Below, in pieces: positions 4,697 through 62,610 of a DNA stretch of 64,000 nucleotides. The stretch comes from Anaeromyxobacter dehalogenans 2CP-C (lineage in GTDB: Bacteria > Myxococcota > Myxococcia > Myxococcales > Anaeromyxobacteraceae). Both the position numbers and the translations under genes were made by a program. The DNA lies in contig NC_007760.1 in assembly GCF_000013385.1 (NCBI RefSeq), forward strand, positions 4,748,001 through 4,812,000, in the 5' to 3' direction. A model generated the notes under the pieces. The model was given only the letters and a program-made list of their open reading frames with translations. It ran no database searches and had not been told where the DNA came from. Numbering within the stretch: position 1 is the stretch's first letter; the number at the start of each line of letters is the position of its first letter.

Positions 4697-5728
4697 CTAC
4701 CGGCCGGTGCAGGTACCGGAGGGTGACGCGAGCATCATCGGCTTGCCGGAGATCCGGTCCAGGAACATCTGGTAGCCGCTGGAGCAGCCGCGCGAGTACC
4801 CGAGGTACGCGCCGGGGTACTGAGGCGAGCAGGTCGCGTCGGCCTGCACGCCGTACTGCAGCACGAAGGTTTCGCCCTTCGCGAGCGGGACCGCGGTCTC
4901 GGCCAGCACCTCGAACGCCTCGGGATCCTCGCACGGGGCCCAGTGGTACCGCACGCCCGTTCGCTGACCGTCGATCAGGACCCCGGGCTCGAGGAACCGG
5001 TATCGGTCGGAGATCGGCGGCCCGGCGACGCGCTCGTCGAACGCCACGATCTCCGCACGGCCATCTGCACCGAGTCCGGCGAGATAGGCGTCGAGCCAGT
5101 CCGTTCCCGAGCCGCCGCCTTCCTGAAGCGTGCGCACCAGGATCGAGATCCCCTGGTAGACGCCGCGCATCCTCTCAGGCCCCGATCCGAGCGACCAGTG
5201 CACGGTCCTCGCACCCGAGGCGTCCGTCTCGAGGGTCGCCACGGCGTTCATCCACAGCTCGATGGTATCCCTTCCAGGATCCGAGACGTCCACGGGCTCG
5301 AGCTCCAGGCCCAGGGTGATGACCCGGTGGGTCCGAAGCACGCTGCCCGTGACGCGCTCCAGTCCGGCGCCCGGGTCCACGGTGCCCACGCGCGCCACCT
5401 GCTCGTGGCCGTCGAGGGGCCGGACCACGGCGCGGACGTTCGTCCCCTCGCTCGTGTCGGAGTAGCGGTCCAGCAAGGGGATCCAGGCATGCCCGGTGAT
5501 GAAGAAGCTGCTCGCGCCGAACGGCTGGTAGCTGACGTCGGTCACCACGTACGGCAGGGACACCGTCTGCGTGTCCACGATCTCCCACTCGGCGCAGCCG
5601 CAGGACCCGCCGCTTCGCTCGGCGCGAAGGCAGCCGGTGGGGGCCTCGCAGTCGGCCTGACCGCAGCCTGAAAGCACGGCCGGGACGACGGCGAGCAGCG
5701 CGACGGCGAGGATCGGGAGCGTGCGCAT
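4697..5728 (-). CDS. Lipoprotein of unknown function
   Basis: The 343-residue protein begins with a lipoprotein signal ending VLSGC (Cys22), so it should be lipid-anchored. Many cysteines near the mature N-terminus (CEAPTGC, GSCGCAEW) suggest disulfides. No family was recognised. The rest is beta-rich, with repeated aromatic/hydroxyl strands and a C-terminal SPSGTC. The ATG at 5728 follows a GAAAGGTG site; upstream reading is in the intergenic region. It lies beyond the terminator at 5812-5835, so it is probably its own unit and not part of the starch operon. Its codon use looks less GC-rich than its neighbours. Confidence 0.65.
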   Translation of the reverse strand: MRTLPILAVALLAVVPAVLSGCGQADCEAPTGCLRAERSGGSCGCAEWEIVDTQTVSLPYVVTDVSYQPFGASSFFITGHAWIPLLDRYSDTSEGTNVRAVVRPLDGHEQVARVGTVDPGAGLERVTGSVLRTHRVITLGLELEPVDVSDPGRDTIELWMNAVATLETDASGARTVHWSLGSGPERMRGVYQGISILVRTLQEGGGSGTDWLDAYLAGLGADGRAEIVAFDERVAGPPISDRYRFLEPGVLIDGQRTGVRYHWAPCEDPEAFEVLAETAVPLAKGETFVLQYGVQADATCSPQYPGAYLGYSRGCSSGYQMFLDRISGKPMMLASPSGTCTGR

Positions 5729-59360: not shown

Positions 59361-59792
59361 ATGAACAAGCGACACCTGATCGCCCTCGCGGGCGCCCTCG
59401 CGCTCCCCTGCCTCGCGGAGGCCCAGGCCTCGGTGCAGCTTCGCCTGGACCTTCCGGTCGTCATCCCGCAGCTCGTGGTGGTCTCCCCCGGCGTGCAGGT
59501 GGTGCCCGACGTCGAGGAGGAGGTCTTCTTCGTGGACAGCTGGTACTGGGTCCGCCACGACGGCGGCTGGTACCGCGCCCGCAGCCCGCGCGGCGGCTGG
59601 GTCTACATGCAGCCGCGCTACGTGCCGGCCCGCCTCGTCCAGGTCCCGCCCGGCAAGTACAAGCGCTACCACCCGGGCAAGGGCCACGGCGCGCCCGCCC
59701 GCTACGAGGGTGGCGGCCACGGCGGCGGCCATGGCGGGCACGGCGGCGAGTACGGCCACCCCGGCAAGGGGAAGGGCCACGGCAAGCACTGA
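59361..59792 (+). CDS. Secreted protein with Gly/His-rich C-terminus
   Basis: The 143-residue protein has a signal peptide ending LAEAQA. The middle has VDSWYWVRHDGGWYRARSPR, a YXXW-type envelope motif also seen in small secreted bacterial proteins. The last 45 residues are Gly/His/Lys-rich (GHGGGHGGHGG), suggesting metal binding. No family was established. The gene is divergent from rplU. Confidence 0.7.
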   Translation: MNKRHLIALAGALALPCLAEAQASVQLRLDLPVVIPQLVVVSPGVQVVPDVEEEVFFVDSWYWVRHDGGWYRARSPRGGWVYMQPRYVPARLVQVPPGKYKRYHPGKGHGAPARYEGGGHGGGHGGHGGEYGHPGKGKGHGKH

Positions 59793-59870: not shown

Positions 59871-60335
59871 TCAGAGCCCGAAGTGCGCCGGCGACAGCCC
59901 CTTCCACTGGCAGTACTCGCGCAGCTCGCGCTTCACGAGCCCCCAGGTCAGCGCGAGCGCCAGGACGTCGTCGGTGAAGCCGAACGGCACCAGGAAGTCG
60001 GGGACGAGGTCGATGGGCGAGACCACGTACACCACCGCCGCCGCCAGCGCGGCGACCGCCTTCCACGGGACCTTGCGGTAGGTGCCGTTCGCGTAGTCGC
60101 GGATCACCATCCAGAGCAGGCGCAGCTTGCTGCGCAGCTTCGCCGGCGCGGTCTTCGCGTACCAGGGCGGGCGCGCCAGGAAGCGCCGCGCCGACTCGGC
60201 GTGCGCGGCGGCCGTCTCCGGCGTCACGTCGCGCGCGTCGCGGGCGAGCTCGCGGGCGGCCGCGTCGCGGCAGGAGATGCAGTCGCCGTTCGTGCCCTGG
60301 GGGCGGCCGCAGGCGGGGCAGGTGCGGGGGGCCAT
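59871..60335 (-). CDS. Zinc-ribbon DUF1232 (YkvA-like) protein
   Basis: The 154-residue protein has an N-terminal CPACGRPQGTNGDCISC zinc ribbon and a DUF1232 core YVVSPIDLVPDFLVPFGFTD, followed by a hydrophobic helix. DUF1232 proteins are small membrane-associated proteins of unknown function. It is convergent with the Gly/His-rich gene. Confidence 0.78.
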   Translation of the reverse strand: MAPRTCPACGRPQGTNGDCISCRDAAARELARDARDVTPETAAAHAESARRFLARPPWYAKTAPAKLRSKLRLLWMVIRDYANGTYRKVPWKAVAALAAAVVYVVSPIDLVPDFLVPFGFTDDVLALALTWGLVKRELREYCQWKGLSPAHFGL

Positions 60336-60396: not shown

Positions 60397-61314
60397 TCAC
60401 CCTTCGCGGGCGCGGCGCCGCGCGCGCTCGGGGCGGCCCGCGGGCTCCGCCTCGACCACCTCGTGGAAGCGGCGGTAGTCCACCGCGCGCCGCCCGTCGG
60501 GCAGCGTGCTCACGATCGGCGCGAAGCGGGCGCCCCAGCGGATGCGCGCGGCCGCGTAGACGTGGCGGGCGTAGATGACGCGGGTGAGCGCCTCGTCGTA
60601 GCCGCTGAAGGTGACGATGATCTCCGCCTCGGCGGCGGCGAGCGCCCCGCCGTCCGCGCCGGCGAGCGGGCTCGCCGGGCCGATGGGGTGGGCCGCCGTC
60701 CAGGCGTGCGAGAACAGCGCGGTGCCGCCGCGCAGGAGCGGCAGGTCGTGCGCGCGCCGGACCGGCTCGCCCTCGTCGTCGAGCTCGTCGCGCACCAGCA
60801 TCACCGAGACCTTCGCGTCCACCACGTGGCTGGTGCGCTCGTTCGCCATGCGGAACTGGAGCGCCTCGCCGCCGCGGTGCGGGCCGACGACCGCCACCTC
60901 GCTGAACAGCACCCGGGCCCGGAGCAGCGAGAACTTCGCGAGCACGATGCCCGCGCCGATCACGAGCTCCGCCCAGCGCACGAACCCCTCCGCGCCGGCC
61001 ACCAGCCCGGCCGCGAGCGCGCGGGGCGCGAGCGCCGCCCGCACCTCGTCCGCCGAGGCGCCGCGCGCGAGCGCAACCAGCGCCGCCACCGCCGAGCCGC
61101 GCGCCGCCGGCCCCGCCTCGCCGAGCGCGTAGTGCGCCGCCTCGAACAGCGCCGCGGTGACGAAGTAGACGAGCGCGTACACGGCGCAGAGGCGCGCCCA
61201 CGGGCCGGTGACGAGCAGGTGGTACAGGTCGGCGAGCGGGCGCCGCCGCAGGCCGATCGCGACCAGGCCGCGGGTGGCCTGACCGAACACGCGGGTGTGG
61301 GTGAGATCCGCCAT
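60397..61314 (-). CDS. Inward-rectifier K+ channel-like protein lacking the selectivity filter
   Basis: The 305-residue protein matches KirBac proteins outside the pore. It has the slide-helix/TM1 region DLYHLLVTGPWARLCAVYAL, TM2 ending FSLLRARVLFSEVAVV, and a cytoplasmic domain with LQFRMANERTSHVVDAKVSV, HDLPLLRGGTALFSHAWTAA and HPIGPASPLAG. Between TM1 and TM2, where Kir channels have a pore helix and TVGYG, it has an Ala/Leu-rich stretch (about 70-115) with no T-x-G-Y/F-G. It therefore probably does not conduct K+ in the usual way. It could be a sensor or a modified channel. Confidence 0.82.
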   Translation of the reverse strand: MADLTHTRVFGQATRGLVAIGLRRRPLADLYHLLVTGPWARLCAVYALVYFVTAALFEAAHYALGEAGPAARGSAVAALVALARGASADEVRAALAPRALAAGLVAGAEGFVRWAELVIGAGIVLAKFSLLRARVLFSEVAVVGPHRGGEALQFRMANERTSHVVDAKVSVMLVRDELDDEGEPVRRAHDLPLLRGGTALFSHAWTAAHPIGPASPLAGADGGALAAAEAEIIVTFSGYDEALTRVIYARHVYAAARIRWGARFAPIVSTLPDGRRAVDYRRFHEVVEAEPAGRPERARRRAREG

Positions 61315-61378: not shown

Positions 61379-62398
61379 CTACCGCGCGGTCGCGAGCGCG
61401 GCCAGCCCGGCCGCGTGCGGCGCGCGCACCACGCCGCGCTCGGTCACGATGGCGGTGACGAGCGCCGCCGGCGTGACGTCGAACGCCGGGTAGCGCGCCG
61501 GGACCCCGGCCGGCGCGATGCGCTGGCCGGCCAGCACGACCACCTCGTCGGAGGCGCGCTCCTCGATGGGGATGTCCGCGCCGGTGGGCGTGGCGAGGTC
61601 CACGGTGGACCACGGGGCGGCCACGTAGAACGGCAGCCGGTGGTGCGCCGCGAGGACCGCCAGCGCGTAGGTGCCGATCTTGTTCGCCACGTCGCCGTTC
61701 GCGGCGATGCGGTCGGCGCCCACCACCACGCAGCCGATCTCGCCGCGCGCCATGAGCCAGCCGGCCATGCCGTCGGTGAGCACCGTCACCGGGATGCCGT
61801 CGCGGTGCAGCTCCCAGGCGGTGAGCCGCGCGCCCTGGAGGAACGGGCGCGTCTCGTCGGCGAACACCGAGATGGCGTTCCCGGCCTCGACCGCGGCGCG
61901 CACCACGCCGAGCGCGGTGCCGTAGCCGGCGGTGGCGAGCGCGCCGGCGTTGCAGTGGGTGAGCACCCGGGCGCGGGCGGGCACGAGCGGCGCGCCGAGC
62001 GCGCCGATGCGGCGGCAGGCCGCCTCGTCCTCGTCGCGGATGGCGTGCGCCTCGGCCAGCACGTCCGAGGCCGGCGCGCCGATCCGCGCCGACATGCGCC
62101 GCACCGCCCAGGCCAGGTTCACCGCGGTGGGCCGGGCGCGGGCGAGCAGGTCCGCCGCGGCGCGCAGCCGCTCCGGGCCGGCGCCCCGCCGCGCCTCGAC
62201 CGCCAGCGCGTAGGCCGCCGCCACGCCGATGGCGGGCGCGCCGCGCACGGTGAGGTCCTGGATCGCGGCCGCCACCGCCTCGGCGGTGGACAGCTCGAGC
62301 CAGCGCTCCTCCGCGGGCAGCGCCTTCTGGTCGAGCAGGCGCACCAGGTCGCGGGCGTCGTCGTACAGCACCGGCCGGAGGGGTTCACGCACCGTCAT
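61379..62398 (-). CDS. mtnA: Methylthioribose-1-phosphate isomerase MtnA
   Basis: The 339-residue enzyme of methionine salvage has [17 protein letters not shown] with the catalytic Cys, [20 protein letters not shown] with the catalytic Asp, and [18 protein letters not shown]. It interconverts methylthioribose-1-P and methylthioribulose-1-P. It overlaps the small membrane protein stop (ATGA). No other salvage gene is in the window. Confidence 0.94.
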
Positions 62399-62610
62399 CG
62401 TTCTCCCTTGCCGAGGCCGGCGAAGAGCCGCAGCGCGAAGTACCCGGCCGCGCTCGCGGCCACGCCCGCGGCCGGCCAGCGCCCCTGCGTCGCCAGCACC
62501 CCGGCCATCACCGCCGAGCCCGCCAGCGCCAGCGAGAGGAAGAGCTTGCTCGGGCCGCCGGTCGCGCCGGCGCCCGCCGGTCCCGCACCCCACCCTGCCC
62601 AGCGCGCCAC
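62395..62610 (-). CDS. Small membrane protein between gatB and mtnA
   Basis: The 71-residue protein has two short hydrophobic segments ([38 protein letters not shown]). Its GTG start lies two bases after the gatB stop, and its stop overlaps the mtnA ATG. No family recognised; tight packing between two genes supports translation. Confidence 0.5.

Follow-up and report, generated by a model that had tools for sequence, protein, structure and literature searches.

The KirBac homologue encoded near one end of the analysed window, by which we mean the whole 64,000-nucleotide stretch of Anaeromyxobacter dehalogenans 2CP-C DNA (GC content 72-76%), is NirBac1.1, a Kir-type protein that lacks the K+ selectivity filter and was described in 2015 (Zubcevic et al., Sci Rep 5:15305, PMC4607889). 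An earlier note on this DNA, made from the sequence alone, had made the right observation on a protein that was already known. At a probability of roughly 0.9, we consider NirBac1.1 to be a homotetrameric channel of the Kir fold, in which the loss of the K+ filter from the P-loop would leave a pore passing monovalent cations with little selectivity, whose activity would be governed by anionic lipid, with POPG raising it and PIP2 lowering it, and which would have arisen in place, in the ancestor of the genus, from an ordinary TIGYG-bearing KirBac at the same locus. Within this reading, we infer which way the change went, what the protein does in the cell and how its pore is shaped. The protein itself brings no novelty; the added value of the present work is modest and consists of gene-order evidence for the loss of the filter in place.

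The reading frame was correctly called intact: it starts with ATG and encodes 305 amino acids (aa) with no internal stop (Table 1). In a PDB sequence search, KirBac3.1 was matched over aa 14-288 (E 7.8e-47) and KirBac1.1 was matched with an E of about 1e-35, so that the alignment takes in both transmembrane (TM) segments in addition to the cytoplasmic domain, as had been proposed for all three parts. The same full-length homology to KirBac is seen in the alignment and in Foldseek, where the top ranks are taken by KirBac3.1 structures (E 4.6e-26). In Pfam, the cytoplasmic domain is recognized by the IRK_C profile of the Kir superfamily, and the IRK transmembrane model PF01007, which marks canonical KirBacs, does not match the window protein; a profile search with PF01007 returned zero matches across the whole host genome.

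Table 1. Coordinates of the NirBac1.1 gene, its parts and its neighbours in the window
Feature	Position	Strand	Evidence
NirBac1.1-type gene, KirBac homologue without TxGYG	60397..61314	-	ORF; IRK_C; KirBac3.1/KirBac1.1 sequence matches; PMC4607889
Slide helix, aa 26-36, kept in common with KirBac	61207..61239	-	AlphaFold2 H26-36; alignment
TM1, aa 39-63	61126..61200	-	AlphaFold2 H39-63, pLDDT mostly >90
P-loop region, aa 67-106, without filter motif	60997..61116	-	Alignment versus 54 filter-bearing sequences
Predicted short helix at the pore-helix position, aa 75-83	61066..61092	-	AlphaFold2, moderate confidence
DEVRA, aa 89-93, aligned to KirBac3.1 TIGYG; predicted helical	61036..61050	-	Alignment; AlphaFold2
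TM2, aa 97-129, including genus-invariant F111-V112-R113-W114	60928..61026	-	Alignment; AlphaFold2
Cytoplasmic Kir (IRK_C) immunoglobulin-like domain, aa 135-290	60445..60912	-	PF17655, E 4e-25; pLDDT mostly >90
Upstream neighbour, mtnA-like (start codon approximate); positional anchor, not channel part	61379..62485	-	Conserved neighbour in family; name recognised from sequence
Downstream neighbour, DUF1232-like membrane protein of 154 aa; positional anchor, not channel part	59871..60335	-	Conserved neighbour; family name putative

The absence of the filter, the central claim of the earlier note, is borne out by the alignment: the window protein contains no TxGYG or similar motif of the kind that characterizes canonical KirBacs, and DEVRA stands at the position of TIGYG in KirBac3.1. 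As in NirBac proteins, the P-loop is also unlike known filters, both in the alignment and in the comparison of reading frames with shuffles described below. The stretch that follows the filter position, APRxLxAxLxxxxE, still aligns with canonical KirBacs, and the part that was truly replaced therefore comprises about 25 residues only.

AlphaFold2 monomer models were built from two inputs, one restricted to the eight filterless sequences (mean pLDDT 66.5) and one of 62 sequences (86.5). Both models agree on the slide helix, TM1 (ending at aa 63 or 64), TM2 and a beta-rich cytoplasmic domain, and both place a short helix (aa 74/75-83) at the pore-helix position, followed by a second short helix (aa 88-94/95) at the filter position. 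Confidence in the loop is moderate (block means of pLDDT about 60-80), and with the same moderate confidence the filter position is predicted to be helical rather than to form an extended filter. The statement that the loop has no recognisable pore helix accordingly holds for the motif, since FFFSVQT is gone, but not for the predicted structure.

An orthologue of the gene is present in eight of the nine genomes of the genus, with 60-100% identity and with all frames intact, and the filter is absent from every one of them. The loss of the filter, which the earlier note had proposed to follow among homologues, is conserved: it is a genus-wide property, fixed in all eight members that hold the gene, and the named relatives in the filterless group are Anaeromyxobacter species. 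In the protein tree, the eight filterless proteins form one NirBac clade with support 100/100. The orthologue from the presumed strain 2CP-1 (genome G001) is 94% identical to the window protein in our alignment, whereas >97% was reported for NirBac1.1 and the 2CP-1 protein (PMC4607889); the orthologue from G005, presumably strain Fw109-5, is 63% identical and lies in the same gene order.

T[IV]GYG is kept in 54/54 other distinct Kir-type sequences, which span further genera of the family, the order and other phyla and include a second Kir of one genus member; matches found only in a phylum-wide search lie outside this count. Among these 54 sequences, no filterless Kir was found outside the genus. 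The second Kir (L018, G002:C1:457243-458049) bears TIGYG and clusters with Kirs from different families of the order, and was thus probably gained separately.

The gene order gatB - mtnA - kir - DUF1232-like gene - rpmA (L27) - obgE is conserved, with a gene for a small protein on the other strand. Beside the same genes, sister genera of the family also have a kir, which there encodes TIGYG. The filterless protein thus occupies the locus at which sister genera have an ordinary KirBac, and the most parsimonious history is an in-place loss of the filter by a TIGYG KirBac in the ancestor of a single genus. The proposal of an origin in place rests on gene order, because the protein tree does not single out any one KirBac as the closest relative of the NirBac clade. 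The direction of change suggested here, from a TIGYG orthologue, goes one step beyond the 2015 paper, whose authors left the origin of the P-loop open (PMC4607889).

In G003, a member of the same genus, there is no kir between mtnA and the DUF1232-like gene, which are separated by a gap of about 300 bases (G003:C126, locus L085, about 5061-5361), and kir was likewise not found in G010, G017 and G022; the gene is therefore dispensable. Among the neighbours, the DUF1232-like protein has N-terminal CxxC pairs, and its gene lies between mtnA and kir in L009, and beyond kir, on the other side, in the genus of the window. A 143-aa protein, whose gene ends at 59792 on the forward strand and keeps its place in the genus on the strand opposite to kir, begins much like a signal peptide and ends in a Gly/His-rich tail (GHGGGHGGHGG).

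The functional properties of NirBac proteins were established by others on NirBac1.1 from strain 2CP-C and NirBac1.2 from Anaeromyxobacter sp. Fw109-5. The purified oligomers are of ~120 kDa, consistent with tetramers, and their activity was measured as 22Na+ uptake into liposomes; the flux through NirBac1.1 discriminated little between Na+, K+, Rb+, Cs+ and Li+ (PMC4607889). POPG raises NirBac flux and PIP2 inhibits NirBac1.1, and Ba2+, spermine and quaternary ammonium ions have no significant effect (PMC4607889). This characterisation is by tracer flux only (PMC5429665). Of the two readings offered in the earlier note, a channel with a different pore is the published one, and a ligand-sensing domain on an altered membrane part that is not a channel is unsupported by the liposome flux data. 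The annotation of these genomes contains no further obvious K+ channel gene (PMC4607889), and, in agreement, neither PF07885 nor PF01007 revealed in the host genome a second K+ channel as a possible partner.

Two features of the sequence would also fit a non-conducting pseudo-channel, that is, a membrane protein that has a dead pore and is retained for sensing lipids or ligands. The loop is the fastest-changing part of the protein: the window protein and L005 share 13 of 37 aligned residues there, against 108 of 160 in the much better kept cytoplasmic domain; in addition, R113 in TM2 is invariant in the genus where KirBac3.1 has Gly. However, this reading appears improbable, as liposomes take up 22Na+ through purified NirBac1.1 and NirBac1.2, and also through a chimera that joins the NirBac1.1 TM/pore part to the cytoplasmic domain of KirBac1.1 (PMC4607889). 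Still less credible is a loop that serves as a conserved new selectivity filter tuned to a particular ion: NirBac1.2 somewhat prefers Na+, K+ and Rb+ over Cs+ and Li+, but NirBac1.1 is reported to be non-selective (PMC4607889), and within the genus the filter position is occupied by DEVRA, AEVRA, PAPAA, PAPAP or DSGPA, so that there is no fixed new filter motif.

The reading of NirBac1.1 as a filterless channel agrees with the signs of selection on its gene. Over aa 1-290, dN/dS values (NG86) of 0.06-0.24 in close pairs indicate purifying selection; distant pairs were set aside because their third positions are 97-99% GC, which makes dS unreliable. Together with the intact frames in eight genomes, these values uphold the earlier view that the protein is not a product of simple decay, and the picture named there as a sign of recent damage, filter-bearing close homologues and a frameshift in this strain, is not what was found, the genus orthologues being filterless as well. 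The frames of NirBac loops were also compared with those of canonical loops against shuffles. No alternative frame scored consistently above shuffles, and a frameshift origin of the loop is thus unsupported; the in-frame comparison gave a weak signal in the L001-L004 lineage only (z about 1.1-2.3), and the nucleotide comparison gave z of 2.2-2.6 for L001 and L004. The absence of the filter is neither chance nor a local error, because eight of nine genus genomes carry a filterless orthologue and the 2CP-C gene was independently re-sequenced, as were the NirBac genes of that study (PMC4607889). A recent pseudogene or local damage in this strain (frameshift, deletion or assembly error) could draw on the dispensability of the gene, missing from G003 and several sister-genus genomes, but is ruled out for practical purposes by genus-wide conservation, close-pair dN/dS far under 1, the frame comparison and the re-sequencing.

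As a tentative extension, the loss of the filter at a single ancestral locus may have been followed by fast divergence of the P-loop in the genus with the gating domain under selection, selectivity being abandoned rather than re-tuned, and the protein may act as a lipid-controlled filterless cation leak. A Kir-fold tetramer that stays assembled and conducts in the absence of a K+ filter demonstrates that selectivity can be uncoupled from fold, assembly and lipid gating, a point made in 2015; our addition is the evolutionary direction suggested by gene order, and the filter-bearing KirBacs at the same locus in sister genera provide natural before/after pairs for experiments.

Compared by description rather than letter for letter, the window protein is like NirBac1.1 (YP_467386) of A. 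dehalogenans 2CP-C in genus, architecture and missing filter, and no difference between the two emerged. NirBac1.2 is a filterless orthologue whose loop is almost wholly different. KirBac3.1 and KirBac1.1 have in common with the window protein the fold, the slide helix, the two TM helices and the cytoplasmic domain, and differ from it by their TIGYG-type filter and aromatic pore helix; moreover, KirBac1.1 is inhibited by high POPG, whereas the NirBacs are activated (PMC4607889). NirBac2.1 of Gemmatimonas aurantiaca is likewise a KirBac homologue with a non-canonical filter, but departs in the filter alone (TTGTD), the other parts of its P-loop being KirBac-like (PMC4607889). TbIRK of Trypanosoma brucei is a Kir homologue that also lacks TxGYG; it carries GGYVG and, unlike NirBac1.1, is still K+ selective (PMC5429665).
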